Source: an uncultured Bacteroidales bacterium (GTDB taxonomy: Bacteria; Bacteroidota; Bacteroidia; Bacteroidales; UBA932). Taken from it: 45,686 nt of DNA. Positions 9,248 to 42,482 of the stretch are shown here, piece by piece; the first letter of the stretch is position 1, and each line of letters starts with the position of its first letter. The stretch is taken from positions 1 to 45,686 of the forward strand of contig ONOI01000024.1 in assembly GCA_900319375.1 (NCBI GenBank). The letters are read 5' to 3'. Under the pieces are notes generated by a model, which made no database searches, was not told where the DNA came from, and was given only the letters and a program-made list of their open reading frames with translations. The position numbers and the translations under genes were made by a program.

Positions 9248-9250
9248 CAA

Positions 9251-10276: not shown

Positions 10277-10282
10277 TTGTCT

Positions 10283-16110: not shown

Positions 16111-16122
16111 ATTGTTGAGTGT

Positions 16123-25576: not shown

Positions 25577-25586
25577 ACCGAAAAAT

Positions 25587-26930
25587 TTACTTTTTGATCG
25601 GGTACAGACGGAGGAGGAGCAATATCAAAAGGGCGATAGCTGCGGGGAATAGCGAGAACAGCGACCAGATCATAGTCTGTACGGAAGTCATATTGGTGAT
25701 AGTGACTACCGTCTCGCCTGTGATGGGATCTGTGTTGGAGATGAAACCTGCAAGTCCGAGAAGCATGGCTACAAGAGCTCCGGAGATAGCAGATCCGAAC
25801 TTCTGAGCCATAGTACCGGAGGAGAAGATAAGACCTGTTGAAGAAGTCCCGTTCTTCTCGGTAGCATAATCAGCTACGTCGGCATACATCGACCACAGAA
25901 GCGGGGAATAGAAGCCGATACCGATAGAAGTGATAATTACATTTGCCACCATCACCCAGATCCAGGACGCCTTCATAGGAATGAAGAAGAACAGGATGGA
26001 TGAAACGGCGCATATAATGGCTGCCCAGGCGAAGGCCTTCTTCTTAGAGCCGACTTTCTTGGTGAACCAGGGGCTGAGGCCTCCGAATACCATGCAGGTA
26101 GCTTCTCCGAACATCATAAACACCGTGTAGTTGATAACAAGGCCCATCACGGTAACATCTCCGTGGAGGCAGTACTCCATCAGGTAGGCGGCTACAGCGT
26201 AGCGGAAGCCGTTGAAGAAGTTGGTGCAGATACCTATAAGGGTGAGGTAGATCCACGGTTTGTTGCGGAACAGATCAGCAAAAGGCTTGAAGGAGAACTT
26301 CTCCGCGCGGATTGGCTTCAGACGCTCCTTGGTCAGAAGGCCGCAGGCGAGGGTTCCCAGGGCTGCAACCGCTCCAAGGATAACGCCCAAAACCGCATAC
26401 TGATGCTGAGGAGTACCTCCGACAAGGCGCTGCAGGTATGGGAAGGAGAAAAGCATCACGAAGCCCATTGCGTAAGCGCCCACCATACGGAAAGACGAGA
26501 ACTGGTTCTTCTCGTTGTCGTCGTCGGTCATAACACCGAGGAGTGAACCGTAAGGAACGTTCACGGCGGTGTAGACTACCATCATCAGCAGATACAGAGT
26601 ATAAGCGTAGACGCGCTTGCCGGCGAGTCCAAGGTCCGGAGTATAGAGCAGCAGGGCGAATACCAGACCCAGCGGAATGGCTCCGAAGATGAGCCAGGGG
26701 CGATAGGTGCCCCAGCGGGACTGGGTACGGTCCGCGATAGCCCCCATCAGCGGGTCGGTCACCACGTCGAACAGGCGGGCTACCAGCATAAGGGCGGCGG
26801 CGTCTGCTACCGTAAGGCCGAAGACGTTGGTAAAGAAGAAGGGGAACGCGATGGACATCACCTTCCAGGTAATACCGCCGGCGGCGGCATCGCCCAGGGC
26901 GTAGCCTATTTTCTCGGAGAGTTTAGCCAT
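25587..26930 (-). CDS. GPH-family sugar:cation symporter (MFS)
   Basis: A 447-residue inner-membrane transporter with 12 predicted segments. The MAKLSEKIGYALGDAA opening, ARLFDVVTDPLMGAIADRT and the VPYGSLLGVMTDD segment are those of the glycoside-pentoside-hexuronide symporter family. In mannan loci of other Bacteroidota, such a transporter lies next to GH26, GH130 and cellobiose 2-epimerase genes and carries mannobiose or related disaccharides into the cytosol. That role fits here, since GH130 lies immediately upstream (two-base gap). Whether it also carries cellobiose for GH94 is an open question. Confidence 0.9.
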   Translation of the reverse strand: MAKLSEKIGYALGDAAAGGITWKVMSIAFPFFFTNVFGLTVADAAALMLVARLFDVVTDPLMGAIADRTQSRWGTYRPWLIFGAIPLGLVFALLLYTPDLGLAGKRVYAYTLYLLMMVVYTAVNVPYGSLLGVMTDDDNEKNQFSSFRMVGAYAMGFVMLFSFPYLQRLVGGTPQHQYAVLGVILGAVAALGTLACGLLTKERLKPIRAEKFSFKPFADLFRNKPWIYLTLIGICTNFFNGFRYAVAAYLMEYCLHGDVTVMGLVINYTVFMMFGEATCMVFGGLSPWFTKKVGSKKKAFAWAAIICAVSSILFFFIPMKASWIWVMVANVIITSIGIGFYSPLLWSMYADVADYATEKNGTSSTGLIFSSGTMAQKFGSAISGALVAMLLGLAGFISNTDPITGETVVTITNMTSVQTMIWSLFSLFPAAIALLILLLLRLYPIKK

Positions 26931-26932
26931 AT

Positions 26933-28093
26933 TTATTTGATTTTCAGATTCTTATCGATAAGACGGTTGATGCGCTCGACCGTAAGACCGGTTCTGCCGC
27001 CGTCGGGCTCGGTGTTGAGGCAATAGTCAACCAGCCTGTCTACGGTAGAGGTGGCGACATGCATGCGAGTATCGGACGAAGCGTAGTAGATGAACACCTT
27101 TCCGTCCGGATCCTCGATCCAGCCGTTGGAGAAGGCGACGTTCATGACATCTCCTATATACTCCGGTCCTTCGGGAGCGATGAAAAAGCCTGAAGGCTGC
27201 GCGATGAGTTTTGAAGGATCGTCCAGCGCAGTCATATACAGGTAGAGGACGTAGCGAAGTCCGCTGGCGCAGCCGCGTACGCCATGGGCCAGATGGAGCC
27301 AGCCCTTAGAGGTCTTGATGGGGTGAGGTCCCTCGCCGTTCTTGACTTCGTAGACGGTGTGGTACTTACGCGCGCTGATGATCTTCTCTTCCTTAACCTC
27401 GGCGTTGGTGATATCGTCGATCAGAGCCCAACCGATTCCTCCGCCGCTGCCGGTGTCGATGAAACCGTCCTGCGGGCGGGTGTAGAGAGCATATTTGCCG
27501 TCTACGAACTCAGGGTGGAGGCAGACATTGCGCTGCTGCGAGGCCGATTTGAGGTCTGGCAGTCGCTCCCAGTTTACGAGATCATGGGTACGGGCGATTC
27601 CGCAGGCAGCGGTAGCGGCTGAGGGGTCGCCTTCGTTGTCGTGGTCCTTGCGCTCAACGCAGAAAAGACCATAGATCCAGCCGTCTTCGTGGCGCGTCAG
27701 GCGCATATCGTAGACATTGGTCGCCGGCTCGCCGTACTCGGGCAGGGTGATGGGCCTGGGCCAGAAACGGAAGTTGTCGATGCCGTTGGGGCTCTCGGCT
27801 ACTGCGAAGAATGACTTACGGTCGTCGGCTTCCACTCTGACTACCAGAACGTATTTGTCGCCCCATTTGATAGCGCCGCTATTGAATGCGGCGTGGATGC
27901 CGATGCGCTCCATCAGATAGGGGTTGGTCTTCGGGTCGAGGTCGTAGCGCCACTCCAGCGGGGCATGGGCCGCCGTCAGAATAGGATTTTCATACCTTTC
28001 GTACACACCGTTTACGTAGTCGGTGTGGTTTTTCTTCGAGAGAAGCTCTTCGTGTTCTTTTCGGAGAAGCTTAATTTTCAGTTTCCAGTCCAT
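26933..28093 (-). CDS. GH130 phosphorylase, 4-O-beta-D-mannosyl-D-glucose phosphorylase type
   Basis: A 386-residue cytosolic five-bladed beta-propeller enzyme with no signal peptide. The catalytic Asp lies in NVYDMRLT (Asp129), and phosphate-site residues in WIYGLFCVERKDHD, QQRNVCLHPEF and YHTVYEVKNGEGPHPI follow the GH130 subfamily 1 pattern. That subfamily splits mannosyl-beta-1,4-glucose and phosphate into mannose-1-phosphate and glucose. Its partner is the cellobiose 2-epimerase at 43581-44771, which makes mannosylglucose from mannobiose. It is encoded one base after GH26 and two bases before the symporter gene, an order seen in other mannan loci. Confidence 0.93.
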   Translation of the reverse strand: MDWKLKIKLLRKEHEELLSKKNHTDYVNGVYERYENPILTAAHAPLEWRYDLDPKTNPYLMERIGIHAAFNSGAIKWGDKYVLVVRVEADDRKSFFAVAESPNGIDNFRFWPRPITLPEYGEPATNVYDMRLTRHEDGWIYGLFCVERKDHDNEGDPSAATAACGIARTHDLVNWERLPDLKSASQQRNVCLHPEFVDGKYALYTRPQDGFIDTGSGGGIGWALIDDITNAEVKEEKIISARKYHTVYEVKNGEGPHPIKTSKGWLHLAHGVRGCASGLRYVLYLYMTALDDPSKLIAQPSGFFIAPEGPEYIGDVMNVAFSNGWIEDPDGKVFIYYASSDTRMHVATSTVDRLVDYCLNTEPDGGRTGLTVERINRLIDKNLKIK

Positions 28094-28094
28094 C

Positions 28095-29192
28095 TTACTT
28101 GATATCGTTAAGAAGAAGTATATTGTTGTTTTCTATGAATTCGCAGAAATCGTTCTCAGTAGGTCCGCCGGGGAAGGGAGCGTAGAAGTGGACATCCCTG
28201 CGGCCGGGTTCGCTGGTGTTGCGCCAGGTGAGGAGGTAAGCGATGGGGAAGTCCTTGATAGCCGCCGCGAGCACCTCGGTCCACCAGGTCGGATAGGTCA
28301 GGCCTTCGTAGCCGGTTTCGGTGAAGGCGAGTATCTTGCCATGGTCTTTCGCGAAGCCCTGCAGGCTCTCCAGAAGAAGGCGGGTGTTCTTGATGTAATA
28401 GGGTATGGCTTCCTGCTGAGGCATCCAGGTAGGGCAGTACATATCAAGTCCTACTATGTCTACATAGGCGTCGCCGGGGTAGCGCTCAGGCCATCTTTCC
28501 CACCAGTCTACTCCGTTGGGCGAGATAGCCCAGATAAGGTTCTTCAGGCCTCTTTCCTTAACAAAGAAGTCGTAAGTCAAGATCCAGAGAGCGTTGTACT
28601 CTTCGGCGCTGCAGAAGTCCCAGCCCCACCAGAACCAGCTTCCGGTGTGTTCGTGCCAGGGGCGCCAGATAATAGGTATAGGTTTTCCGTCGGGGGTCTT
28701 GATGCTGCCCAGGAAATCTGCGATCCTGCCCATGCGCTCCATCCACATTTCGTGGAGGTCGCCGCCCTTGAGGATGCGGGCTACTACATTGCCGCCGGTA
28801 AGGTCCCACGCGTCGCTGCCGGTAACGGGGTTATCGGGATGCCAGCTGATGGTGACGATGCCGCCGCGCTGATAGTGCTTGATCGCTGCTTCGCGGGTGA
28901 GGTCGATGTCGTTGCCGTCGAGATTCTTTTTGGCTCCAAGTTCGAAGTCGCCGAGTTCAAGGCCGAGGATAGCGGGGTAGTCGCCCGTAACGGCCTTGAC
29001 GTCCGAACGCTCGAGAGAGTGGTCGCCGTCTTCATTGGCATTCCAGGTGTGGCCATACATGAGGTCGTCCTGGTGGCCATAAAGGACTTTGCCTTCTGCT
29101 ACGGCCTTTTCAAGTGTAGAGATCACTTTGTCAGTAGGTTGGGTGCATGCTGCAATTGAAAGCATGGCTGCGAGAACACAAATCTTCTTCAT
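28095..29192 (-). CDS. GH26 beta-mannanase lipoprotein
   Basis: A 365-residue lipoprotein with SIAAC lipobox (Cys16) and one catalytic domain. The start of the barrel KVLYGHQDDLMYGHTW, the acid/base in WRPWHEHTGSWFWWG (Glu181) and the nucleophile in FTETGYEG (Glu292) identify GH26. This compact form resembles the mannobiose-releasing enzymes next to GH130 in other Bacteroidota mannan operons. It likely yields the beta-1,4-mannobiose that the epimerase and GH130 use, acting in the periplasm or at the cell surface. It ends one base before the GH130 gene. Confidence 0.92.
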   Translation of the reverse strand: MKKICVLAAMLSIAACTQPTDKVISTLEKAVAEGKVLYGHQDDLMYGHTWNANEDGDHSLERSDVKAVTGDYPAILGLELGDFELGAKKNLDGNDIDLTREAAIKHYQRGGIVTISWHPDNPVTGSDAWDLTGGNVVARILKGGDLHEMWMERMGRIADFLGSIKTPDGKPIPIIWRPWHEHTGSWFWWGWDFCSAEEYNALWILTYDFFVKERGLKNLIWAISPNGVDWWERWPERYPGDAYVDIVGLDMYCPTWMPQQEAIPYYIKNTRLLLESLQGFAKDHGKILAFTETGYEGLTYPTWWTEVLAAAIKDFPIAYLLTWRNTSEPGRRDVHFYAPFPGGPTENDFCEFIENNNILLLNDIK

Positions 29193-29193
29193 T

Positions 29194-30624
29194 TTATAAT
29201 GAGGCTCTTATTATTGCGTCTTTAATGTAGGGTTTTGTCCATTTAGGAACACTCCTGTCTGCTCCGTCGCTAAGGAGCATCCAGCAGAAGCAGGCTCCGC
29301 CGTATTGCTTGCAGGTCTGAACATAGCATGTGACCTGTTTGGCGATCTCTGTATCTGCGCGGGGGGCGGTCGTTCCGTATTCTCCGATTATGAAGGGTAC
29401 CCCCTTGGCTGAAGCCAGGGTTGCGATGGATTTTATCTGGTTCTGGACTTCTTTCTGGGCCGCTTCGCTCCAGGTGGTGACTTCTCCGGCGCCCTCGTAC
29501 ATGGCGAACATGTAGGGGGAGTAGCTGTGGAATTCGGCGATAATGTGGTCCTTGGCGCTGTCCTGAGGGATAGTGAGCGCAGCAAAGGCATTGGCTACAG
29601 AACTTGCGCAGTAGTCGTTGATTACGAGATTTCGCTTAGCGTTATTGGAGCCGGTACCGCGTACTGCATTTACGAAATCCTGATTGTATTTGTCTATATA
29701 TATGTAGCTTGTAGAGGATTTGGGCTCGTTCCAGTAGTTGCTGGCGTCCAGCATTTCGTTGAAGCTCTCGAAAAGGAGCTTGGAACCGTAGTCCTTGAAC
29801 CTTTCCGCTATCTGTTGCCAGAGGGTGATGAAGCGCAGCCTTGTATTGTTGTAGACTGTCTGGTCTGCGCGCAGCCAGCCATTAGTTCCAGTGTCGTGAT
29901 GGACGTTGAGGATGCAGTACATCCCGGCATCGAGAACGTAGCCGACGACTTCCTCTACGCGGTCCATCCAGGCCTTGTCTACCTGCCCGTTAGCGTCCAT
30001 GTGCTGATACCATGTAACTGGAACACGGATAGCGCCGAAGCCGGCGTCGGCGAACAACTGCATCAGGGCGGGGGTAGTGATGGCCTGGCCCCAGCCGGTT
30101 TCGAAGCGGCTTACGCTCTGGCCGTCGAGCCAGTCTCCGCAGGTGTCAAGTGTATTGCCGAGATTCCAGCCCGTCCTCATATTGAGTACTGCGGCGGCGG
30201 CGTTTTCCCAGCCGTCGCTGTCTGCCCCCGGGTCCGGGGGCGTAGGCTCCGGCTCGGGCTCTGCCGCCGCCTGCCTTACCGTCAAGTTCTGATCTGCGAG
30301 TCCCTTGGCGGAGACGGTGATAACGGCCTCCCTGGGCTCTTCTACACTGTTCTTAGCGACGACAAATCTGAAGGTTATGCTATAATGATTGAAGGTTCCG
30401 TCTTTGAACTCTATCCAGTCTGGCAACCCGCTGACTTTCGGCCTGGCGGGGGAGGTAACCGTCAGAGATAGGGTAGCTCCGCTAGCTGGTGCATCAAGTG
30501 AGCTCGCGCTCAGCGTCATCCCTTCCGGGACCTGATCCACGGCGGGATTCGGCTCCGAGTCGGGCTTGACGCAGGAGAAAGCTGAGAGCAGCGCAGCAAA
30601 GAATATGAACCCGAATCTTCTCAT
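29194..30624 (-). CDS. BACON-GH5 endo-glycanase lipoprotein (GH5 subfamily 4 type)
   Basis: A 476-residue lipoprotein: lipobox SAFSC (Cys18), a BACON domain (about 36-118), a Pro/Glu linker and a GH5 barrel from about residue 138. GWNLGNTLD, NVHHD, the acid/base in FESFNEM (Glu290) and the nucleophile in FIIGEYGTT (Glu415) place it near GH5_4, a subfamily with endoglucanase, xyloglucanase, licheninase and mannanase members. It probably makes initial cuts in glucomannan at the cell surface. Its BACON domain shares SPARPKVSGLPDWI exactly with the neighbouring GH5, pointing to duplication. It lies one base after the preceding GH5. Confidence 0.9.
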   Translation of the reverse strand: MRRFGFIFFAALLSAFSCVKPDSEPNPAVDQVPEGMTLSASSLDAPASGATLSLTVTSPARPKVSGLPDWIEFKDGTFNHYSITFRFVVAKNSVEEPREAVITVSAKGLADQNLTVRQAAAEPEPEPTPPDPGADSDGWENAAAAVLNMRTGWNLGNTLDTCGDWLDGQSVSRFETGWGQAITTPALMQLFADAGFGAIRVPVTWYQHMDANGQVDKAWMDRVEEVVGYVLDAGMYCILNVHHDTGTNGWLRADQTVYNNTRLRFITLWQQIAERFKDYGSKLLFESFNEMLDASNYWNEPKSSTSYIYIDKYNQDFVNAVRGTGSNNAKRNLVINDYCASSVANAFAALTIPQDSAKDHIIAEFHSYSPYMFAMYEGAGEVTTWSEAAQKEVQNQIKSIATLASAKGVPFIIGEYGTTAPRADTEIAKQVTCYVQTCKQYGGACFCWMLLSDGADRSVPKWTKPYIKDAIIRASL

Positions 30625-32160
30625 TTACAGTCTGGGAGCGGAATCGTATACTTTCTGAAGAGTGTAAGACTGGCTGTCTGTTTTCCAGGCTTTAACCATC
30701 GCATTTACCGGCTCCGAGGAGTTGCCGATGTACTGGCCGGTTCCATGGTCTATGTACGCATGCTTTTCTTTGCCTGAACCCTTGGCGCCGTTGTCCCAGA
30801 GGAACGGGGCGATTCCGTAAGTCTTGGCAGCCTTTACTACGTATTCCAAATAATAGAGGAAGAAGGCCCACGGTCTTGCGTCGCTCTTCGAGCGGAACGA
30901 GCAGCCGAATTCGCCCATATAGACGGGGATGTCCTTGGCGATATAGTTCTCGTAAATACCCTTGAAGAGGTTTTTGATCTCTTCCTCGCCGCGAGGGTAA
31001 CTCGAGCCGGTGTGGCCCCAGTCGGGAAGCTGGCGGTCTCCGATAGTGTAGTCGTAGGGATCGTAGCAGTGGAAGGCGAGCATGGTCTTGTTTGCGGGGT
31101 CCTCGGGGACTGCAAGGTACTTAAGGTAGTTAGGACTTGCGGCGTAGCCGGGAACGCCCAGCCAGCGGGTTTCGTTGTTCCCGCCAGTAGCGCGAACTGC
31201 ATTGACAAATACCTGATTCCACTCGTTGATGACTTCGCACTTCCTTTCTGTATTGGAGGAAGAAGACCACTCATTGCCGTAGATAAGCTCGTTGAAAGAC
31301 TCGAACATAAGGAAATCGCCCTTTGTCTTGAACTTTTCGGCAATCTGAGTCCATACCGCTGCGATTTCTTCCTTAATCTGGGAGTTGACCGCCGCGGTAT
31401 TTACAGCGCCCCTGAGATCGAGCCAGTTGCTGTCGCCGTGGTTCTCATCGTGGTGGGTGTTGATGATGACGTTCAGTCCGGTTTTTTCCGCATAGCCGAC
31501 TATCTCGGCGACACGGTTGATCCATGCGGTCTCGATCGTATAATCGGGCGCCGCTCCGATATGGCCCTGCCAGGTGATGGGAATGCGGACGCTGGTGAAA
31601 CCGGCGCTCTTGACTCCGTCGAAGGTGGCCTGGGTGGCCTTGGGGTTGCCCCAGCAGGTCTCGTTCGCGACTCCGCCGCTGATAGCGTCCATCTGATTGC
31701 CCATATTCCAGCCCAGCCCAAGCTCGACCGTGCGACGGGTTGCAACGTTATCGGGCAGGACGTTGGGATCCGGGATGTCTTCCTTCCCTTCCTGGCTCAC
31801 GGCAATAGTTATGTCCGCGACTCCCTTGGCGCTGACGGTCAGTTCGGCCGCGCGGGCGGTGGTACTCTCGTTGGCGCGTACTGTCAGAGTAACGGTCATC
31901 TGGTAGGTACTGGGATTGTATGTTCCGTCTTTATAGCTGATCCAGTCCGGGAGTCCGCTTACCTTCGGGCGGGCGGGGGAAGTCAGCTTTACACTGAACG
32001 AACCTCCCTCCTGGGTGGCGGTAATCTGAGCTGGCTCAGCGGTGATGACAGTAGGGACCGTCGGCGTTTCTCCCTGTTCGTTGCCCCCGGGCTTTCCGCA
32101 GGAGCATAGAAGTGAGATAAACGCAAATGAGGAAAGAATCAAGTTGGCTATTCTGAACAT
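30625..32160 (-). CDS. BACON-GH5 endo-glycanase lipoprotein (GH5 subfamily 4 type), second copy
   Basis: A 511-residue lipoprotein (LLCSC lipobox, Cys21) with a BACON domain (about 40-124) and a GH5 catalytic barrel from about residue 140. GLGWNMGNQMD, NTHHDENHGDSNWLDL, acid/base in MFESFNEL (Glu291) and nucleophile in VYMGEFGCSF (Glu417) are GH5_4-like. The catalytic domain differs clearly from the neighbouring copy, so the two may cut different linkages of the same polymer, whereas the BACON domains are close. It is likely at the surface. It follows GH26 by eight bases. Substrate within GH5_4 cannot be told from sequence alone. Confidence 0.9.
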   Translation of the reverse strand: MFRIANLILSSFAFISLLCSCGKPGGNEQGETPTVPTVITAEPAQITATQEGGSFSVKLTSPARPKVSGLPDWISYKDGTYNPSTYQMTVTLTVRANESTTARAAELTVSAKGVADITIAVSQEGKEDIPDPNVLPDNVATRRTVELGLGWNMGNQMDAISGGVANETCWGNPKATQATFDGVKSAGFTSVRIPITWQGHIGAAPDYTIETAWINRVAEIVGYAEKTGLNVIINTHHDENHGDSNWLDLRGAVNTAAVNSQIKEEIAAVWTQIAEKFKTKGDFLMFESFNELIYGNEWSSSSNTERKCEVINEWNQVFVNAVRATGGNNETRWLGVPGYAASPNYLKYLAVPEDPANKTMLAFHCYDPYDYTIGDRQLPDWGHTGSSYPRGEEEIKNLFKGIYENYIAKDIPVYMGEFGCSFRSKSDARPWAFFLYYLEYVVKAAKTYGIAPFLWDNGAKGSGKEKHAYIDHGTGQYIGNSSEPVNAMVKAWKTDSQSYTLQKVYDSAPRL

Positions 32161-32168
32161 AGTCTTTA

Positions 32169-33365
32169 TTATTTAAGTGACGGCATCGCTTCGCGGTTCA
32201 TTACCGCAGAAGATGTCATCAATGTTTTCCAATATGTTTCAGTATTGAGGGGGTAAGATTCCATATCCCAGACCAGGAACCAGCTCCATGCCTGGCCGGC
32301 GGCCTTACACTTCGCCGGATCCGGGATGTTTCCGCACTCGCTGACAGTCACCATTTTGTGTCCCGCGCTGAGCGCGACGGCTGCATCATACTGGCGCTGC
32401 TTGGCTTCGGTGTCATTGGCATATATGTCTACTCCCACTATATCTACCAGGTCGTTTCCTGGATACCATTCGGCGAACTGTTTCTCAGCTCCTTGAGTAG
32501 CATCCAGAGTCCATACCCAGATAAGGTTGTTGAGACCGTACTCGCCTTCTAGTTTGTCGCGAAGCAGTTTCCACAGCTTCTTGCAGGGCTCGGCGCCTCC
32601 GCGGCCCCACCAGAACCACGCTCCGTTTGAGCCGTAAAGATTGTAATTGCCGGCGGCTTCGTGGAGAGGACGCCAGATTACTGGTATGCCTTCATCCTGG
32701 AGCAGTTTCAGGTAACCGGCGACTTTCTCGATGTCGCTAAGTATGAACTCGTTTTCCCATGTACCTTCTACAAGGGCGCGCTCGATGCTGAACGCTGTTT
32801 TGTCGCAATAGAAATTATAGCCGTCGAAATTGCCCTTCTTTCCGTTCTCCCAGGCCTGCTGGTTGGTCGGGACGTTCCAGTGCCACATAAAGGATACAAG
32901 ACCCTTTGCGTTCCACTGCTCGCGCGCCGCCGAGATGTCTCCATAGTTGACTTTCCAACTCCAGTTGTCGGGGGTGGGGGAGTACTGAAGGAAAATGTAG
33001 TCGTAGCCAGCCAGAGCTGGGTGTTTGCCTGTCAGGGTGTAAATCTGATTAACCCTTTCGTTGTTGTTGGCAGTACCGCCGGACTGAACGCCGCTGAGCA
33101 TCTTCTGGCCGGAAAGGATGCGAAGGAATTCATAGACGTTTGCCGCCTGCTGCGTAGCATTCGGGTTTGTTAGGGTCGAGTCCGTCTCTTCAGCGAATTC
33201 GACCGGCTCCGGCTCTGGCTCGGGTTCAGGTTCTGGCTCTGGCTCGGGTTCAGGGTTGACTATGACCGGATCCGGGTCATCCTTTACAGGGGAATCGACC
33301 GGATCAGGATTACATCCCAGAACCAGCAGCGCAAGCGCTGCCGTTAATATATATACTTTCTTCAT
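32169..33365 (-). CDS. GH26 beta-mannanase lipoprotein with Pro-Glu linker
   Basis: A 398-residue lipoprotein (LVLGC lipobox, Cys18). A rigid Pro-Glu dipeptide repeat (about residues 38-54) separates the anchor from a GH26 domain that begins near residue 70. HPALAGYDY, FMWHWNVP, the acid/base in WRPLHEAAGN (Glu236), AWFWWGRGG and the nucleophile in VTVSECGNIPD (Glu343) identify a second, distinct GH26 type that resembles surface endo-mannanases. The linker would hold the enzyme away from the membrane. The gene is the first enzyme after the glycan-binding proteins and is preceded by a strong intercistronic hairpin. Confidence 0.92.
   Translation of the reverse strand: MKKVYILTAALALLVLGCNPDPVDSPVKDDPDPVIVNPEPEPEPEPEPEPEPEPVEFAEETDSTLTNPNATQQAANVYEFLRILSGQKMLSGVQSGGTANNNERVNQIYTLTGKHPALAGYDYIFLQYSPTPDNWSWKVNYGDISAAREQWNAKGLVSFMWHWNVPTNQQAWENGKKGNFDGYNFYCDKTAFSIERALVEGTWENEFILSDIEKVAGYLKLLQDEGIPVIWRPLHEAAGNYNLYGSNGAWFWWGRGGAEPCKKLWKLLRDKLEGEYGLNNLIWVWTLDATQGAEKQFAEWYPGNDLVDIVGVDIYANDTEAKQRQYDAAVALSAGHKMVTVSECGNIPDPAKCKAAGQAWSWFLVWDMESYPLNTETYWKTLMTSSAVMNREAMPSLK
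33204..33256 (-). repeat. Low-complexity Pro-Glu coding repeat
   Basis: A run of near-identical six-base units encoding alternating Pro and Glu in the linker of the GH26 lipoprotein. Slippage could change its length between strains. Confidence 0.8.
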
Positions 33366-33410: not shown

Positions 33411-36140
33411 TTACTTAAGGATGACAGCTGTGATTCTATATCCTTGACCGGTGAGTACAAGACCGCCGGCGGAGTTGAGCTCTGCCAACATCTCTGAAGT
33501 AAGTTCAACTTCAAGAGTGTTTCCTTCCGGCTTGTAGGGGTCTTCCGTTCCGGGGAGAGCAGCCCAGCCGCCATTGGCAACACGGATCTGAACTTCCTCT
33601 TCCACGCGCTCGAACTCAAGAACGAGAGTGGTACCGGCTTCTACCGTGCTCCAGTCGTATCCACCCCAAGAGAGGGCTCCCATAGAGCCTTCTGCTCCCT
33701 CGGGGGCGGGATTCTGCCAGTTCACATAGACACTGCCTTCCCAGATGGTCTTGCCCTGGGATGCGCCGCCCGATTCGGTGGTCACGAGAGCGACCTCGGT
33801 GATGGTCCAGAAGGCGCCGCAGATTACGAGTCCGCCGGCGGTAGTCAGCTGCTCGAGGTCTGCCTCAGTGAGCTCGAACTCATAGCTTGTAAGTCCTGCA
33901 ACGGGGATATTACCGTCCGCTGCGAGGCCTGCAAGGCTAGGCATAGAAGCCCAGCTGCCATTGCCGAAACGCATTACAGCATTGTCTGCGCTGGCTGTGA
34001 AGGACACTGCGAGCTTTGTGCCGGCCTTGACTGTACTCCAGTCATAGCCGCCCCATGAAAGAGCTCCCATGGATCCATCCCAGTCACCGACGGTAAGGCT
34101 GCCTTCCCAGATAACAGTCCTCTTCTCGGCTGCGCCGAAGATGATGAAGGACAGGCCTGTGATCGTGAAACCGGTTCCGCAGACCACGAGTCCTCCCTGA
34201 TTCACCAGTACGTCGAGATCCTCGGCGGTGAGCTCAACCCTGTACTCGGTCATTCCTTCCTCGAGAGGGAGGTTGCCGTCCGTTGCGAGACCTGCAAGGC
34301 TAGGGATAGAAGCCCAGCTTCCGTTGCCGAAGCGGATGCATCCTGTGGGATCGTCGATAGTGAAGTGTGCACACAGGATGGTTCCTTCTGCGACGGTACT
34401 CCAGTCATATCCACCCCATGAGAGGTCGGTCACCGCACCGCCGCTCCAGGTGACGGTCGAGTTGCCTTCCCAGATGAATGTCTCGGTGAAGGGAGCAGTC
34501 ACGGAGAAGGGGATGGGCCAGGTGACTTCGCTGTCGTCTACGAGGGTAATCGCGAGACGATAGACTCCGGGTCCAAGACCCTCGGGAATGTCGAACGACA
34601 TCGCGGTGTCTGTACGGACTGCATAGTTGGTGACCTTCTTGCCCTTGATGTAGATCTTCTCGATCTGCATGAGGTTCGTACCAGTAATGGAGATCTTCTG
34701 TCCGAGTCCGAACGAAGGAGCATCGAACTTGATCGATACGCTCATGTCGTAGACGATGGAGATCTTCTCGGTAGCGGTATCGTAACCGCTGGCTGCGGTA
34801 AGGGTGATAGGACCATTGTAGGCCTGCTCGGGAACGACTACTGCTACAGTGCTGTCTGCAGCGTTGTACTCGAACACGCAGTCAATGAAGGACTGGTCCT
34901 TATTACCGATAGTCACGCTGGTAACAAGGTCGAGATCCGTTCCGCTGACGATGATCGTGTCCTTGCCTGCGGTAGCAGTAGTAGTGTCTACTGCAGTTAC
35001 AACGGGCTTTACGACCTCGATCGCGTCTGAGTAAGCCTTCTTGCCGGACTCGAGGGTCACGACTACCTGGCCGTCTTTGGCGCCCGCGGGCTGAGTAGCT
35101 ACGATAACATCCTTGTTGAGATACCAGTCTGCAGCTGCGCCCTCGAAATCGACTGCGCTGACAAGATCAAGGTCGGTACCGGAGATTTCTACGGTACATC
35201 CTGCCTTGTAGCGTCCGTCATCTGCCTTGGAAACTACTGCGAGTTCGGCCACATTTACGGTCTCGATTTCGCCTGCGTCAAACTCGACACCTGCGAAAGA
35301 GGTGAGTGTAATGTTTCCGTCAGTAGCCTTGGGAGGAAGATTGAAGCTGATGCTGTCAAGCTGTTTGCCAAGGATAAACTCAACAGAAGCAACCTGAGGA
35401 AGAGCAACATTCTTGATCATATCGAGATGCTCGCCTGTTACGACGATAACATCGCCGCTCTTATAGGTAGCCTTGGCCGCCTTGTTGACGGTAGGATTAC
35501 CTACTACGAGATCGGTCTGAGTGTAGATATGGTTAGGAATGGTAGTTCCGTCTTCTACCTCGTTGACATCTGACAGAATGATAGGGCCGGTGATTGCGTT
35601 TGCCGGAACCTTGACCTTCAGCTCGTGACGATCCTGGCTCTCGAAGGTGGTGGCGTATGCATTATCGCCGCTGAAGAATACCTCCTTCACATCGTAGAGA
35701 TATTCGCCCTTGATGGTGATGATATCGCCTGAGAGGACGGTAGCGGGGGAGAATGAGGAAATCTCGATAGGCTCAGAGAAGGTAAGGTCTGCCTGAGAGC
35801 TCTTTACCTCATCGCTCTTGGAGACGATGGAGACTTTGCCTACCTCGGGTCCCTCGAGAGGAACGATTACATAAAGGGTATCAAGTTTAGCTCCCTTGCC
35901 TACCTTGACGAATTCAGTAACGGAAATGTCTCCGGCAAAGCGGACTTCCTTTACCTCGTCAAGCTTGCGTCCGAAGATGCGGAGCTCACCACCGCGCATC
36001 ACCGGATTCGGTGCCATTCCGCTGAAAGTGAAAGCCTCAGTCAGCGGGTTCACGTCGAACTCTTTGTCCTGGCAGCCGGTAAATGCAGCCATCCCAGCGC
36101 AGAGAGCGACGATGAGGGAATATTTGAAAATCTTTTTCAT
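33411..36140 (-). CDS. Large IPT-repeat surface glycan-binding protein with three C-terminal tandem modules
   Basis: A 909-residue lipoprotein (AFTGC lipobox, Cys23). Six IPT/TIG-like beta-sandwich repeats follow, about residues 36-545, with recurring patterns such as SGDIITIKGEYL and AGKDTIIVSGTDL. The rest is three tandem modules of about 112-122 residues starting near 555, 676 and 798, each opening with IWEG and carrying SWGGYDWSTV and a GGLVxxG strand near its end. The position directly after SusD and the IPT protein, and the lipoprotein anchor, point to a surface glycan-binding protein that holds the polymer. The aromatic-rich modules are the probable binding units; I know no name for them. 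Confidence 0.82.
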   Translation of the reverse strand: MKKIFKYSLIVALCAGMAAFTGCQDKEFDVNPLTEAFTFSGMAPNPVMRGGELRIFGRKLDEVKEVRFAGDISVTEFVKVGKGAKLDTLYVIVPLEGPEVGKVSIVSKSDEVKSSQADLTFSEPIEISSFSPATVLSGDIITIKGEYLYDVKEVFFSGDNAYATTFESQDRHELKVKVPANAITGPIILSDVNEVEDGTTIPNHIYTQTDLVVGNPTVNKAAKATYKSGDVIVVTGEHLDMIKNVALPQVASVEFILGKQLDSISFNLPPKATDGNITLTSFAGVEFDAGEIETVNVAELAVVSKADDGRYKAGCTVEISGTDLDLVSAVDFEGAAADWYLNKDVIVATQPAGAKDGQVVVTLESGKKAYSDAIEVVKPVVTAVDTTTATAGKDTIIVSGTDLDLVTSVTIGNKDQSFIDCVFEYNAADSTVAVVVPEQAYNGPITLTAASGYDTATEKISIVYDMSVSIKFDAPSFGLGQKISITGTNLMQIEKIYIKGKKVTNYAVRTDTAMSFDIPEGLGPGVYRLAITLVDDSEVTWPIPFSVTAPFTETFIWEGNSTVTWSGGAVTDLSWGGYDWSTVAEGTILCAHFTIDDPTGCIRFGNGSWASIPSLAGLATDGNLPLEEGMTEYRVELTAEDLDVLVNQGGLVVCGTGFTITGLSFIIFGAAEKRTVIWEGSLTVGDWDGSMGALSWGGYDWSTVKAGTKLAVSFTASADNAVMRFGNGSWASMPSLAGLAADGNIPVAGLTSYEFELTEADLEQLTTAGGLVICGAFWTITEVALVTTESGGASQGKTIWEGSVYVNWQNPAPEGAEGSMGALSWGGYDWSTVEAGTTLVLEFERVEEEVQIRVANGGWAALPGTEDPYKPEGNTLEVELTSEMLAELNSAGGLVLTGQGYRITAVILK
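33414..33749 (-). repeat. Tandem module 3 of the large glycan-binding protein
   Basis: Codes for about residues 798-909. It opens with TIWEG and contains LSWGGYDWSTV, then the more divergent VANGGWAALPG, and ends near GGLVLTGQGYRIT. It is the most diverged copy and forms the C-terminus. Confidence 0.83.
33750..34115 (-). repeat. Tandem module 2 of the large glycan-binding protein
   Basis: Codes for about residues 676-797. It opens with VIWEG and contains LSWGGYDWSTV and FGNGSWASMPSLAGL, and ends near GGLVICGAFWTIT. Its FGNGSWAS stretch is almost identical to module 1. Confidence 0.85.
34116..34478 (-). repeat. Tandem module 1 of the large glycan-binding protein
   Basis: Codes for about residues 555-675. 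It opens with FIWEG and contains LSWGGYDWSTV and FGNGSWASIPSLAGL, and ends near GGLVVCGTGFTITG. It is closely similar to module 2 in protein and DNA. Confidence 0.85.
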
Positions 36141-36152
36141 ATGCGCTTCATT

Positions 36153-37457
36153 TTATTTGATGGGGACCGCACGGATGTTGTCAATCTTGATGATAGGCTC
36201 ACACTCGGTACCTGCAACTCCGCCGCTCCATACGAAGATGGTAAGGGAAGTGAAGGACTGGGCGTTGACCTCATAAGTATTGGCAGTGCCGTCTGAATTA
36301 TAAACAAAGCTTGTGTAAGGGACAGTGACTGTAATCCACTTGTCGCCGGTATCGAAGGAGCCGGTTGCTTCCCAAGGCCTGTAGAGAGCACGGGGAGCCA
36401 TCGGAGCGCCGTCGCCGCTGATGAACTTGTTGTTCGCGCCTGCGGTTTTGTTTCCGTCGATGTCGATTGCGCCTTCAGCACCGCCGGTGACGAGTTCTAC
36501 TCCACCGATAATCAGCTGCATAGCACCTGACTTCCAAGGATTTGCGGAAGGGATGAGCATCTCGAACTTGAGAGCCATGTTGCTCCACTTGCTGAAGTCT
36601 GCGAACTTAGTAAGACGAGGGCTGTCTGCGTATGAGACGGGATCGTCCCAGTCGCCGGGCCAGTACTCGAAAGAGAAGTTTCCGTCTTTCCAGCCGCCGT
36701 CAGCATCGAGCGTGACTCCGGGAGCTCCGAGGCGGAGGAAGTTTCCGTCAAGGGCGGTTCCGTCGGTCTCGATGACCTGGGCGTGCCAACCGTGGTTGGT
36801 AGGATGAGGATCAGTGTCGAAGTTGAAGAGCATTCCGCGGCTGTCCTGATACATAAAGATCGACTGGGCAAGACCGGACGCGGTCTGAACCTTGATCTTA
36901 CCGGGCTTCGCGCCTGCAGGAACGACTACATCGAACGAATCTCCGGTTGATGCAGTAACATCGATGGGATCGGCTCCGGGGAACTCAACAGTAAGAGGAG
37001 CGAAGAGATATGATCCGCTTACGGTAACTGTCTCGCCGGGTTTTGCCCATTCGTTGGAGAGGGCGTTGATCTTCGGGACGGGAGGAAGAACGATAAAGTC
37101 GTAGAGAACTACCGAGCTGTCGCGGGTGACGAGGTGAATCTTGTCATCCTTGACGGTAGGGAGATTCTTAGGTACGGCAACGATGATGGCGTGTTCAGTC
37201 ATATAGCTGGTGTTGAGCACAGCCGCCTGATCGTTGAAGTAGATATCGTGGACACTTGTAAGGTTGTTACCCACGATGCAGATGGTTTCCTCCATGCTGG
37301 CCTGGTTGATGATAAGGTCGCGGTCGGCGTAACGGATGTAGCTTACCTCAGGAAGACCTTTGGTTTCCTTGTAGCGGTCCGGATAATCGATCGCGGTGCA
37401 GGACGCAAGCACGGCAAGACCCATGAGAATACCAATATATCTTGTAATTGCTTTCAT
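36153..37457 (-). CDS. IPT-domain surface glycan-binding protein (SGBP-B type)
   Basis: A 434-residue lipoprotein (VLASC lipobox, Cys20). Two IPT-like domains (about 36-120 and 125-205, the latter with AKPGETVTVSGSYL) lead to a C-terminal beta-sandwich of about 225 residues with FNFDTDP, NFLRLG and a metal-site-like end (IIKIDNIRAV). This layout matches the glycan-binding surface proteins whose C-terminal domain holds the polysaccharide, as in the xyloglucan SGBP-B family. It lies between SusD (11-base gap) and the large IPT protein (12-base gap). It would capture mannan or glucomannan outside the cell. Ligand identity is inferred from the neighbours. Confidence 0.87.
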   Translation of the reverse strand: MKAITRYIGILMGLAVLASCTAIDYPDRYKETKGLPEVSYIRYADRDLIINQASMEETICIVGNNLTSVHDIYFNDQAAVLNTSYMTEHAIIVAVPKNLPTVKDDKIHLVTRDSSVVLYDFIVLPPVPKINALSNEWAKPGETVTVSGSYLFAPLTVEFPGADPIDVTASTGDSFDVVVPAGAKPGKIKVQTASGLAQSIFMYQDSRGMLFNFDTDPHPTNHGWHAQVIETDGTALDGNFLRLGAPGVTLDADGGWKDGNFSFEYWPGDWDDPVSYADSPRLTKFADFSKWSNMALKFEMLIPSANPWKSGAMQLIIGGVELVTGGAEGAIDIDGNKTAGANNKFISGDGAPMAPRALYRPWEATGSFDTGDKWITVTVPYTSFVYNSDGTANTYEVNAQSFTSLTIFVWSGGVAGTECEPIIKIDNIRAVPIK

Positions 37458-37468
37458 GGATTCAGAGA

Positions 37469-39262
37469 TTAAAAGTCATACTTGAAAGTAGCACGTACAT
37501 CGACGTGGACCGGCTCGGCATCAGAACCAACCTTAGGGTTCATGACGACATCCTCGGTCGGGAACGGGATGGTGAACATAGAAGGAGTGACGTTGGTCAG
37601 CTCTTCGTTGGTTCCGTTGTAGCTGATCTTGCTGGAATCCCAAGTGTTGGCTCCGGGGCCTACATAGTTTCCATCCTTTACTACATAGTCATGGTAGACA
37701 TCGGTGATGCCGTCCCAGTGGCCGCGACGCTGGGCCTTGAGCTCTGCGATACAGCCTTCTACATCGTAGTAAGAACGGCGTACGTAGTCATACCAGGTGT
37801 CGCCTTCGAGAGCGAGTTCCAGACGGCGCTCCTTCCAGATATCCTGGACTGTGATAGAAGTTGTGTACGGGATTGCATGGGCGCGGTTACGGACATCATT
37901 GACATACTTACGGGCGTTGGGCTCGTCGCTAAGCAGCATATAAGCTTCTGCACACACGAGATAAATGTCTGACAGACGAAGGATGTGTGTAGGGAGCTGA
38001 TAACACATACGGTCGGCGGAAATTCCGAGAGCGGCTTCGTGGTCGGAACCGCAGCCGTAGATGTGTTTTGCGTACATACCGCCGGTCTGGCAGCACCACT
38101 GGTGGTTGGAACCGTTGGCTTCAAGTCCTGTAGGGTAGTAGTCTGGATCAAAATAGAAGCGGTACATATCGAGGCCGCCCTTATCCCTCCAATACTGGGA
38201 ATACTTGTCGCCGAACATCATAATGGTGGCGTGGCGACGGTCATCCTTGTCGACCCTGAGTACAGGTTCTACGTCGGCGGATACACCGAAGAGGTCCATC
38301 AGGTTTACGCTGGGGCCTTTCCAGTCTCCCCAGGTATTTCCGAATTCGTCGATACCAAGCATACTGACATCGCTCTGGATAGAGTTCTGAGCGGTCCAGA
38401 TACCGGTTCCGGAAGCCCACTGCCAGGAGAAGAGGTTCTCGCCGGTTGCCTGGAAGATGCTGGGCTCGAGGCGGAATACGTCCTCATAATTGGGAGTGAG
38501 GCTGCGGCCGGAGTTCTCGATTACATCGAGAGCGTAATCCCTGGCCTTGGTAAGGTCTGCCTTTGCCTCTTCAGATGAGATTGATCCGCCAAGACCGGCT
38601 TTGGTGAGGTATACCTTCGAGAGGAGACCCTCGGCCGCATAGTAATCGATGCGGTTGTACTTGCCGATATTGGGATCCTTGGGAAGAAGCTCCATAGCCT
38701 TCTCAAGAGTCATAATGATGTACTCGTAGACATCTGCCTTGAGGACCTTGTTCTGCTCGTTGTAGGAAGCTTCGCTGATGACCTGGGTGTTGTCGTGGAT
38801 AATAGGAACATCTCCGAAGGTACGGACAAGCAGGAAGTAAGTCATTGCCTTCCACGCGAGAGCCTCGCCGATAGCTTTGTTCTTGGCGGCGGTGCTGGCA
38901 GAGCCCGTGCTGTTGAGGATGTTCTGGATAACGGTGTTACACTGAGCGTTGACGGCCCAGAGGGAGTAGGACATATTCTTGAGGTCCTTGTCCGTACCGT
39001 TTACCGTAAGGGTTGAATAGGCGTTGTTGCCTTGATATACGTTTCCACACATGGTCTCGGAACCGTAGATATAGAAGCGGATGACGTCGTACCAGGGGGA
39101 ATTGTACAGATAGTTGACGGACTGCTCTACCTGAGCGTCGTTCTGATAGTACTGCGCTGTAGTATAACGGTCTTCAGCCGGTCTGTTGAGGAAGTCCTCG
39201 CAGGAAACGGTGAAAAGAACTACGACTGCTGCGCAAATGATGTATTTGAATCTATTTTTCAT
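37469..39262 (-). CDS. SusD/RagB family outer-membrane lipoprotein
   Basis: A 597-residue lipoprotein with lipobox VSC (Cys21), followed by EDFLNRP, the usual SusD beginning. TPR-like helices with EALAWKAMTYFLLVRTFGDVP and the C-terminal RNRAHAIPY, WKERRLELALEG and DYVRR segments match the family. It covers SusC as a lid and binds oligosaccharides. I prefer the ATG at 39262: a GGAGGAC sequence sits just upstream and the signal peptide starts cleanly with MKNRFK. A start at 39277 would add five residues containing that ribosome site. Confidence 0.94.
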   Translation of the reverse strand: MKNRFKYIICAAVVVLFTVSCEDFLNRPAEDRYTTAQYYQNDAQVEQSVNYLYNSPWYDVIRFYIYGSETMCGNVYQGNNAYSTLTVNGTDKDLKNMSYSLWAVNAQCNTVIQNILNSTGSASTAAKNKAIGEALAWKAMTYFLLVRTFGDVPIIHDNTQVISEASYNEQNKVLKADVYEYIIMTLEKAMELLPKDPNIGKYNRIDYYAAEGLLSKVYLTKAGLGGSISSEEAKADLTKARDYALDVIENSGRSLTPNYEDVFRLEPSIFQATGENLFSWQWASGTGIWTAQNSIQSDVSMLGIDEFGNTWGDWKGPSVNLMDLFGVSADVEPVLRVDKDDRRHATIMMFGDKYSQYWRDKGGLDMYRFYFDPDYYPTGLEANGSNHQWCCQTGGMYAKHIYGCGSDHEAALGISADRMCYQLPTHILRLSDIYLVCAEAYMLLSDEPNARKYVNDVRNRAHAIPYTTSITVQDIWKERRLELALEGDTWYDYVRRSYYDVEGCIAELKAQRRGHWDGITDVYHDYVVKDGNYVGPGANTWDSSKISYNGTNEELTNVTPSMFTIPFPTEDVVMNPKVGSDAEPVHVDVRATFKYDF

Positions 39263-39268
39263 CTTACT

Positions 39269-39275
39269 GTCCTCC
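39269..39275 (-). promoter_or_regulatory. Shine-Dalgarno-like site deciding the susD start
   Basis: On the minus strand this reads ggaggac, six bases before the ATG at 39262. Such strong sites are unusual in Bacteroidota, and it supports the shorter start and high translation of SusD. Confidence 0.65.
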
Positions 39276-39278
39276 ATT

Positions 39279-42200
39279 TTAGAAAGTGAGATTTACACCG
39301 AAGGAGCAGGTCATAGGCGAAGGATAACGTCCGTTATCAACACCGAAGGTAAGACCTGTCGAGTCCTGAGTGGAGGCACCGACCTCAGGATCGAAGCCCT
39401 GATATCTGGTCAGCGTGTAGAGGTTCTGGATATTCATATAGACGCGTACATTGTCGAAGTGGATCTTCTCGAGCATGCTCTTCGGGAGAGTGTAGCCGAG
39501 GGTGATGTTCTTCACGCGAATATACGAACCGTCCTCGACATAACGGTCGCTGAGGCGGTCGTTGTCGTTAGGATCGGCGATAGTCGGGCGAGGGGTCTTC
39601 GTGTTCGGGTTGGAAACGCGGACATTGGTGACATCCCACTGCCAGGACTCGCCAGCTTTATACTCCTTCTCTGGATCGATGACCTCGAGGCGTGCACGGT
39701 CGGTAATGCTGATGTGCTGGTTGTACCAGACGCTGTTCATATGAACGAGACCGTTCCAGCCCTGTCCGAGAAGGTTGTAGTTGAGAACCTTGTTGCCATA
39801 GGATCCGTTGAGGAAGACGCTGAGGTCGAAGTTGCCGAAACGGAAGGTGTTGGTCCATCCGAAGGTGAACTTAGGAAGCGGGGAACCGATGTTGGTACGG
39901 TCGAGCTCGTTGATCTTTCCGTCTTTGTTGACATCCTCGAACTTGAGGTCGCCGGGCCATACGGTAGTATTGCGGTCGAATGCGTAGTAATCATTACCCG
40001 CCTCGTCTTTCTTGATTTCGGGGAACTTCTCGGGTGTAGGAGAATTGAGAATATCGTCCATATCCTTGTAGACACCGACTACCTTGTATCCATAGAAGTT
40101 ATACAGGGATTCGCCGATTTCAGTAACGGAGACGATATCGTTCCACTGGCCGTAACCTACGAGCTGAGCGTTTGCGCTGCCGTCGAGGGCGATGAGTTTG
40201 TTCTTGTTGAACGAAATCTGGAAGTTGCTGTCCCAGGAGAAGAACTCTCTGTCGATAGGGTGAGTGTCGAGGGTGATTTCAAGACCGCGGTTGCGGATGG
40301 AACCGAAGTTGCCCTTAGGAGCTGCGAGAGCCGATGAGCCGTTACCCTGAGTACCCATATACGAAGGAAGAGTCATCGACATAAGCATGTCGCGGGAGAT
40401 CTTCTGGTACATGTCGATAGTAAGGTTGAAGCGGTTCTGGAGGAAGTTGAGGTCGATACCGAGGTTGGTCTGCTCCTGCTTCTCCCAGTGGACGAAGATG
40501 TTCGAGATATTCGAAGGACGCTGGCTGTCGCCGAGGGCGGAAGGCATCTTCGACATTCCGGACTCCCAGGCACCTGAACCGATGTTGGAGTTACCGGTCT
40601 GGCCCCAACCGATACGGATCTTACCGTCGCTGAGGATATCCTTCATCTCGGCAGGGTAGAAAGCTTCATTTGTGAAGCGCCAGCTTCCTGCGAGGGAGTG
40701 GAATCCTGCCCAGCGGTTCTCGGGACCGAAGTTCGAAGAACCATCATAACGGAAGGTGTAGGTAAGGAGGTAGCGGTTGTCGTAGTTGTAGGTCTCACGG
40801 GTAAAGAAAGAGGCCATTGCGCTCGATCCGAATCCGCCACCGATGGTAGGGGACTTGCTGGTAGCAAGGCCGATGCTGTGGATCTCGTCAGAAGGGAGAT
40901 CCGAGCTCGCTGCCCTGAGGTAGTCCCAGCGGGATTCCCAGGCTTCCTGACCGATCATCGCGGTAACGCTGTGCTTACCGAATGTATTATTATAGGTAAG
41001 GTAGTTCTTCCAGGACCAGTAGGTACTTCCGTTGCGCTGCTGGCTGATCTGGTTGCTGCCCTGCTGGAAGGTTCCGAGGGAGATCTTCGGCTTGTAGGTG
41101 TCTGCCTCAGAGCTGCTGATGTCGAAACCTACTTCGCTGCGGAAGGTGAAATGCTTGATGGGAGTAAGTTCTGCGTAGATACCTCCGTTGAGTTTCTGGC
41201 GCTCGAGAAGGTTCTCATTGTACATTGCAAGAGCCACAGGGTTCTTGGTGTTGAGTCCCTCGCGAACTACTGTAGAATAGTTGCCGTCGATGTCGTAGAC
41301 GGGGATGTCCGGCAGAGAGGACAGGGAGTAGAAGATGACACCTTCCTGACCGTCGGCAAGCTTAAGGTTGTCGTGGGTGCGGGAATAGGCGGCGTTGACT
41401 CCGAGTTTGAACCACTCCTTGAGCTGGGCGTCCAGGTTGGTACGTACGCTGAAGCGGTCGAACTGAGAACCGATGATGGTTCCTTCCTGGCTCATGTATG
41501 AGCCGGATACATAGTACTGGACCTTGTCTGTACCGCCGGTAGCGCTTACCTGATGCTGATGCTGGAAAGCGGTGCGGAAGACTTCGTCCTGCCAGTTGGT
41601 ACCCTTTCCGAGGAGGGAAGGATCGGCGTAGAGAGGATTGGCCTCTACCTCGCCGATATTCACCATATCGTTGTAGTACTCTGCGAACTGGCGGAGGTTA
41701 AGCATCTGGATGCGGCTGGTCTGGCGGGAAGCTGCGACCATTCCGTCGTAGGTGAACTTGGCGTCGCCTGCCTTACCGTGTTTGGTGGTGATCAGAACGA
41801 CACCGTTAGCTCCCTGAGCTCCATAAATAGCTGTTGCGGAAGCGTCCTTGAGGATTTCCATGCTGACGATGTCGGGGCCGTTTCCGAGCGCATCGCCAAG
41901 ACCGAAGTCCGAACCCGAGTTTCCACCGCCCTGGACGATAACTCCGTCGATGACATACAGAGGCTCGGCGTTGGCGTTGATAGTAGCCTGACCGCGCACA
42001 CGGATGGATGAGGAAGAACCCGGAGCACCCGATGTCTGCACTGCAGTAACACCGGCTGCACGGCCCTGGAGGGTCTGGTCGAGTGAAGAGATGATCGATC
42101 CGCGGAGGTCTTCCTCCTTCATCGATACGGAAGCGCCCGAGAGGTCGCTCCTCTTCATCGTACCGTAACCGACAACGACTACGTCGTCCAGGAACAGGCT

Positions 42201-42482
42201 GTCTTCTTCAAGAATGACCTCGAAATAGGTTCTTGTTCCAACCTTGATTTCGGCGGTCTTGTAACCGATTGATGAGACCTCAAGCGTAGCTCCTTCCTTA
42301 ACGGTGAGCTCGAAGCGGCCGTCAAAATCGGTAGTCGTGCCATTGGATGTGCCTTGTTCAACTACGGCTGCACCAATGACAGGGCCTGCGGCATCCTTGA
42401 CAACGCCCGTGACTTTCGTCTGAGCCATCAAGGTTACGCTCACTAGGAGCGCCGCAAGGCAAGTAAACAACTTGCTTTTCAT
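39279..42482 (-). CDS. SusC/RagA family TonB-linked outer-membrane transporter
   Basis: A 1067-residue receptor. Signal peptide to about residue 20 (LMAQ), then a carboxypeptidase-like domain (VTGVVKDAAGPVIGAAV, about 22-105), a TonB box region near DDVVVVGYGT, the plug (LQGRAAGVTAVQTSGAPG and SIRVRGQATINANAEPLYVIDGV, split by two residues) and a 22-strand barrel ending in FGVNLTF. Length and motifs are those of SusC. With SusD it imports oligosaccharides across the outer membrane using TonB energy. It is the first gene after the main PUL promoter and has a leader of about 95 bases. Confidence 0.96.
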   Translation of the reverse strand: MKSKLFTCLAALLVSVTLMAQTKVTGVVKDAAGPVIGAAVVEQGTSNGTTTDFDGRFELTVKEGATLEVSSIGYKTAEIKVGTRTYFEVILEEDSLFLDDVVVVGYGTMKRSDLSGASVSMKEEDLRGSIISSLDQTLQGRAAGVTAVQTSGAPGSSSSIRVRGQATINANAEPLYVIDGVIVQGGGNSGSDFGLGDALGNGPDIVSMEILKDASATAIYGAQGANGVVLITTKHGKAGDAKFTYDGMVAASRQTSRIQMLNLRQFAEYYNDMVNIGEVEANPLYADPSLLGKGTNWQDEVFRTAFQHQHQVSATGGTDKVQYYVSGSYMSQEGTIIGSQFDRFSVRTNLDAQLKEWFKLGVNAAYSRTHDNLKLADGQEGVIFYSLSSLPDIPVYDIDGNYSTVVREGLNTKNPVALAMYNENLLERQKLNGGIYAELTPIKHFTFRSEVGFDISSSEADTYKPKISLGTFQQGSNQISQQRNGSTYWSWKNYLTYNNTFGKHSVTAMIGQEAWESRWDYLRAASSDLPSDEIHSIGLATSKSPTIGGGFGSSAMASFFTRETYNYDNRYLLTYTFRYDGSSNFGPENRWAGFHSLAGSWRFTNEAFYPAEMKDILSDGKIRIGWGQTGNSNIGSGAWESGMSKMPSALGDSQRPSNISNIFVHWEKQEQTNLGIDLNFLQNRFNLTIDMYQKISRDMLMSMTLPSYMGTQGNGSSALAAPKGNFGSIRNRGLEITLDTHPIDREFFSWDSNFQISFNKNKLIALDGSANAQLVGYGQWNDIVSVTEIGESLYNFYGYKVVGVYKDMDDILNSPTPEKFPEIKKDEAGNDYYAFDRNTTVWPGDLKFEDVNKDGKINELDRTNIGSPLPKFTFGWTNTFRFGNFDLSVFLNGSYGNKVLNYNLLGQGWNGLVHMNSVWYNQHISITDRARLEVIDPEKEYKAGESWQWDVTNVRVSNPNTKTPRPTIADPNDNDRLSDRYVEDGSYIRVKNITLGYTLPKSMLEKIHFDNVRVYMNIQNLYTLTRYQGFDPEVGASTQDSTGLTFGVDNGRYPSPMTCSFGVNLTF

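Follow-up and report, generated by a model that had tools for sequence, protein, structure and literature searches.

Three putative glycan-binding modules related to CBM112, one of them apparently a mosaic, in a predicted surface lipoprotein of a Bacteroidales mannan-type locus

Introduction

What would three modules in a row at the end of a surface glycan-binding protein hold, to which family do they belong, and how was the row assembled? These questions are raised by a locus of an uncultured Bacteroidales bacterium (GTDB UBA932; assembly GCA_900319375.1), located on a 45,686-nucleotide stretch of contig ONOI01000024.1, here called the window. An earlier note on this DNA had described three tandem repeats in one protein as recently duplicated binding units for beta-mannan or glucomannan, of a kind that it did not recognise.

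A beta-mannan-binding module, CBM112, was described in 2026 inside GH26 mannanases of Bacteroides cellulosilyticus and B. uniformis (PMC13357471, used here as far as its text was available). According to that text, a minimum of four mannoses is bound. W257 and W301 are essential and conserved across the family, Q293 is among the most conserved residues of the cleft, and Q262, S295, K297, Y310 and H339 also lie there. CBM112 was further reported in GH5 and CE7 proteins and in putative SGBPs, where it follows Ig-fold domains; loci of the latter kind have a GH26 without the insert (PMC13357471).

Gene content of the locus

The genes are ordered SusC, SusD, SGBP1, SGBP2, GH26, GH5, GH5, GH26, GH130, MFS, GH5, GH94; on the far side of SusC lie an AraC-type regulator and a gene of the epimerase family. 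The neighbours of SGBP2 are listed below.

43581..44771, minus strand, GlcNAc_2-epim (PF07221) family protein
39279..42482, minus strand, SusC-like TonB-dependent transporter
37469..39277, minus strand, SusD homologue
36153..37457, minus strand, SGBP1 with SGBP_B_XBD (PF18329) domain, from Pfam
32169..33365, minus strand, GH26, the gene next to SGBP2, by eye without internal module
30625..32160, minus strand, GH5 with BACON domain
29194..30624, minus strand, GH5 with BACON domain
28095..29192, minus strand, second GH26
26933..28093, minus strand, GH130 (beta-1,4-mannooligosaccharide phosphorylase family)
25587..26930, minus strand, MFS sugar transporter
24545..25576, minus strand, third GH5
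22146..24776, minus strand, GH94 phosphorylase, overlapping the GH5 ORF at 24545-25576

By gene content (GH26 twice, GH5, GH130, GH94 and the epimerase family) this is a beta-mannan/glucomannan utilisation locus, the same context as that of CBM112. The PF07221 protein is presumably an epimerase of mannobiose or cellobiose. The true start of the GH94 gene is probably downstream of the listed ORF start, because the ORF overlaps the neighbouring gene by 232 nt and Pfam matches are found only from aa 98 on.

Homologues of both SGBP2 and GH26 were found in all eight related loci (L002-L009). Twenty further regions were picked by hand from search matches, and 16 of these contained a GH26 homologue (15 regions, the match in L088 being weak at 29.7% over 138 aa) or GH130 alone (L087); in L097 and L101, which are among the 16, the modules belong to branches other than that of the window. 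No GH26 or GH130 homologue was found in the four regions L090, L094, L098 and L100, and Pfam searches of nine ORFs of L090 and L094 gave neither family.

The genes of the locus differ in their conservation. The L002 stretch 14017-16394, compared with window positions 24545-26930, is 95% identical for MFS and 89% for GH5, and SGBP2 and SGBP1 of the two loci are 60% identical each; judging from these sequences, the histories of the two locus ends seem to differ. The L005 GH26 beside SGBP2 (10151-11128) is 94% identical to that of the window over 339 compared aa and SusC is 90% identical, at 65% for SGBP2 (7345-10098), which seems to evolve faster than its neighbour genes.

Modules of the superfamily occur in several arrangements. 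The GH26 enzymes of L028 and L029 carry an internal module after a WHWNVP segment; by eye, the GH26 next to SGBP2 in the window does not. The window (by eye) and L040 thus both have a module-bearing SGBP beside an insert-free GH26, as described in the available part of PMC13357471. In L101 (7035-10791) both places are filled at once, with a CBM112-type GH26 locus whose SGBP2 homologue also carries a module. Three consecutive ORFs with two superfamily modules each lie beside mannan enzymes in L092 (6335-11992), and a 730-aa ORF of L097 (1337-3526) joins two modules to a stretch resembling GH26 (37% over 224 aa). L056 (1411-3327, reverse strand) has two N-terminal modules followed, by eye, by a CE7-type esterase, an architecture matching the one given for Segatella copri in the part of PMC13357471 used here.

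The three modules of SGBP2

33411..36140, minus strand, SGBP2, predicted second surface glycan-binding lipoprotein; 909-aa ORF in the order Cys 23, TIG/IPT domains, three modules
34506..36023, minus strand, TIG/IPT (Ig-like) spacer part of SGBP2, about aa 40-545, limits by eye
34137..34481, minus strand, Module 1, aa 554-668, apparent mosaic of slot-1 edges and slot-2/3-type interior; W565 and W609
33777..34118, minus strand, Module 2, aa 675-788; W687 and W730; AlphaFold2 pLDDT 95.6
33414..33752, minus strand, Module 3, aa 797-909; W808 and W859; 7-residue loop insertion; sequence-detectable against PDB 6E57

The cysteine at aa 23 follows a hydrophobic N-terminal start, a lipoprotein signal as judged by eye. 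Pfam detected TIG in three stretches (4.2e-18), and the modules form the C-terminal end of the protein (aa 554-909, window 33414-34481). The three tandem repeats are real: IWEG is present at aa 556, 677 and 799, SWGGYDWSTV at aa 574, 695 and 824, and GGLV at aa 649, 769 and 892. Alignment scores of the pairs M1/M2, M1/M3 and M2/M3 were 315, 188 and 221, and the maxima of 1000 shuffles per pair were 68, 64 and 58, so the resemblance is not due to chance.

Near-identical DNA around the SWGGYDW segment, from which a recent duplication had been proposed, was not observed. Values for the three pairs are given in the order M1/M2, M1/M3, M2/M3. Amino acid identity was 64/120, 46/105 and 51/105, and nucleotide identity across the modules was 221/360 (61%), 166/315 (53%) and 177/315 (56%). 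The same codon was used for 37/64, 21/46 and 23/51 of the identical residues. Within the 33 nt encoding LSWGGYDWSTV, pairs of copies agreed at 29, 28 and 25 positions; the DNA likeness there follows from the protein, as the peptide is the same and every difference is synonymous. Modules 1 and 2 share the longest similar DNA block (71 nt, 86%), followed by a block in all three copies (47 nt, 72-81%), and Tandem Repeats Finder reported no array over the modules. In trees, each module groups with modules of other genomes and not with its sister copies. A recent duplication as the origin of the modules was rejected on the grounds of DNA identity, synonymous differences and tree placement. A restriction of the module to this genome was likewise rejected, since search A2 matched 31 of 200 same-genus genomes (E<=1e-8, own genome included). 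Modules of this type, named the SWGGYDW branch below, were seen in several ruminant-gut genomes.

Family searches and predicted fold

The profile search proposed in the earlier note gave no named family above the curated cut-off. Pfam had no match to the module region of SGBP2 at E<=1, and the sole NCBIfam match, cytochrome 579 (0.015), was far under its cut-off. This match was taken as noise, as were weak ones to DUF4625 and superoxide dismutase.

A search of PDB sequences with phmmer gave 6E57, the mixed-linkage-glucan SGBP-B of B. ovatus, at 1.1e-5 as the sole match below E 0.1, the alignment covering mainly module 3. An AlphaFold2 model of module 2, based on 20 aligned modules, reached pLDDT 95.6 and pTM 0.87. 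With this model, Foldseek found eight PDB matches at E<=0.001, all of them chains of 6E57 or 6E9B (E 2.2e-6 to 2.3e-5, TM 0.69-0.74 by query length, identity 20-21%). Matches to unrelated proteins with E above 0.01 were taken as noise. The predicted fold is one of beta-strands, and the structure search, also proposed in the earlier note, led to relatives that had already been described. A weak fold likeness to CBM65B (5AFE; E 4.5e-3, TM 0.44) was absent from the phmmer matches. The model of the whole three-module array was too poor (pLDDT 75.8, pTM 0.42) for module orientation to be read from it.

The best fold match is hence the C-terminal glycan-binding domain of BoSGBP_MLG-B (6E57, 6E9B), which likewise terminates a second SGBP; the window modules share its fold and its C-terminal place after Ig-like domains. 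The likeness concerns fold and sequence, and one module is matched in BoSGBP_MLG-B, from a mixed-linkage glucan locus, whereas the window has three.

Relationship to CBM112

Module profile A1 matched four of 395 Bacteroidia genomes at E<=0.001, own genome included, and one of the matches is inside a GH26 of L015 whose Pfam match is split. Search A5 started from the L015 module together with two modules resembling it, and within one family it had matches in 22 of 301 genomes. The best of these, L028, is a split GH26 in which 8/8 cleft residues of CBM112 stand at the spacing given for that module. That L028 is one of the published CBM112 enzymes was considered and is unsupported, as 0/4 catalytic-domain residues in the available text of PMC13357471 fit at the shift of the cleft residues; its catalytic glutamates, picked by motif, are at 414 and 503, compared with 411 and 500. 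Direct search with A1 found two of three GH26-internal modules, among them that of L029 at 1e-5, and missed that of L028.

Profile comparison with hhalign of the three window modules against the three GH26-internal modules (L028, L029 and L015, homologues found here and not equated with the published CBM112 proteins) gave a prob of 95.06 and an E of 3.4e-8. A 21-row set of the window branch gave 96.41 against the same modules, and the window modules gave 95.7 against two MLG-B-like rows. Controls for the window modules (two TIG sets and reversed CBM112 rows) remained at 0.12-0.61, and all six controls at 0.08-1.81. The window modules are accordingly homologous to a module inside GH26, and the notion of an unrecognised kind did not hold, since relatives are published (CBM112, in the text used of PMC13357471) and present in PDB (6E57).

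The pair corresponding to W257 and W301 is kept in 3/3 window modules and in 20/20 other modules of the branch; in module 1 the spacing is 44 by counting, the same as in CBM112. The polar cleft is different. Q262, S295, K297, Y310 and H339 were each found in 0/3 window modules, Q262 and Y310 lying in loop columns that are hard to align and Arg replacing S295, and Q293 in module 3 only. All eight residues are present in 3/3 GH26-internal rows. In seven other CBM112-like rows the counts were Q293 7/7, Q262 4/7, S295 3/7, K297 2/7, Y310 4/7 and H339 2/7. The polar residues were treated as a soft mark of CBM112, because they vary in these rows too. Plain CBM112 membership of the window modules is not claimed, as the cleft residues differ, and ligand or affinity may differ from CBM112 because most of the polar residues are absent.

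In a tree of 57 rows, built without published CBM112 members, the window modules fall within a branch of 23 rows (96/95). This branch is separate from the GH26-internal rows, and its grouping with the MLG-B rows is weak (83/54). A second, separate branch (99/97) comprises 12 rows, many of which carry a WWQ..GHW-like motif, and the deepest fork is weak (69/75). The modules resemble CBM112 in profile homology, in two tryptophans at equal places, in the beta-mannan locus and in an SGBP with preceding Ig-fold domains beside an insert-free GH26; they differ in forming their own supported branch and in standing three in a row at an SGBP tip. From these comparisons they look like a separate SWGGYDW branch of a superfamily that includes CBM112 and the BoSGBP_MLG-B binding domain.

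Proposed function

The modules are proposed to be glycan-binding beta-sandwiches at the tip of SGBP2, a predicted outer-membrane lipoprotein. The two tryptophans of each module, which correspond in position to W257 and W301, would stack against the rings of beta-1,4-linked sugars. The array may be held away from the membrane by the TIG domains, and its three in-line modules could keep the chain near the surface GH26 mannanase and SusCD, with ligand and avidity as suggested by the relatives and the locus. It is fairly probable, on sequence grounds, that this predicted surface lipoprotein uses its three in-line modules to keep (gluco)mannan next to the GH26 mannanase. The binding role put forward in the earlier note is in line with homology to two beta-glycan binders, the tryptophan pair and the mannan-type locus; a preference for mannan among the beta-1,4-glycans is a less certain part of it, most polar cleft residues of CBM112 being absent.

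Those missing contacts would also fit binding of another plant-wall beta-glycan, such as mixed-linkage glucan, xyloglucan or cellulose, SGBP2 then being a general wall tether and not a mannan receptor. Among solved structures the nearest relative is an SGBP for mixed-linkage glucan in which a heptasaccharide is bound, the branch groups weakly with the MLG-B rows, and the Arg at S295 has its counterpart in R and K of two MLG-B rows. This is nevertheless unlikely given a mannan-type locus with GH26 twice, GH130 and GH94, and given that an SGBP with superfamily modules shares its locus stretch with GH26/GH130 homologues in 8/8 loci and 16/20 picked regions. Loss of glycan binding could also be read from the altered cleft, the modules then serving in the mannan utilisome mainly as spacers or for contacts between proteins; positioning roles of CBM112-type modules there are discussed in the available text of PMC13357471. 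Such a structural role is improbable, as both stacking tryptophans are kept in 23/23 branch modules (three in the window, 20 others) despite other variation, and the TIG domains would already act as spacers. (Gluco)mannan binding is thus the preferred reading.

Module 1 as a mosaic

Module 1 of the window was compared with the same slot of five orthologues (L002, L003, L005, L006, L007). Its first edge is 73-87% and its last edge 67-86% identical to theirs, and the TIG part is 54-76% identical, whereas the interior is only 19-23% identical. With slot 3 of L003 the same interior shares 79% identity, with slot 2 of L006 76%, and in the tree one module lineage is found in slot 1 of the window, slot 2 of L006 and slot 3 of L003. 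The aligned sequences are clear evidence for a mosaic, in which the edges of the slot were kept and the interior is of another module's type. The mosaic is the new element of this analysis; the binding modules themselves are ordinary SGBP parts. Among the best-matching open-licence literature, judged by title, nothing was found on the SWGGYDW branch or on such SGBP module swapping, and the motif WGGYDW was not found in open-licence literature.

Slot 1 is of the WWQ..GHW type in 13/13 other three-module proteins of the SGBP2 kind (12 by pattern, L059 by eye), a count that omits L004 as a near copy of L003, includes L061-L063, which are near copies of each other, and L019, which is cut by a contig end, and leaves outside L033, L036 and L079, which have three modules but are other proteins. 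In L058, slot 2 too is of the WWQ..GHW type. Codon agreement between module 1 and its three nearest modules was low (35/79, 43/76 and 39/76), so the swap would be an old event and no donor was identified.

The old event and missing donor would also suit a slot 1 of SWGGYDW type from the start, the other arrays having been converted to the WWQ..GHW type with no swap in this lineage, and the polarity of the swap is read from the count only. That history is very unlikely in view of the 13/13 count itself and of the slot-1 edges that the window shares with the five compared orthologues. Replacement of the interior in the window lineage is therefore preferred: the array would have been remodelled, presumably by recombination, with another module's interior placed between the retained edges of slot 1.

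Significance

CBM112 and the MLG-B domain, glycan binders each described on its own, are linked here with a branch that Pfam and NCBIfam do not recognise. The tryptophan pair provides clear targets for mutation, and the natural module swaps are ready-made comparisons of binding specificity. It is conceivable, at slightly less than even chance, that the SGBP tip arrays of these Bacteroidales are recombination cassettes, in which binding faces shift between slots while slot-specific edges remain fixed, and by which the grip of a mannan receptor may be retuned without rebuilding of the locus.
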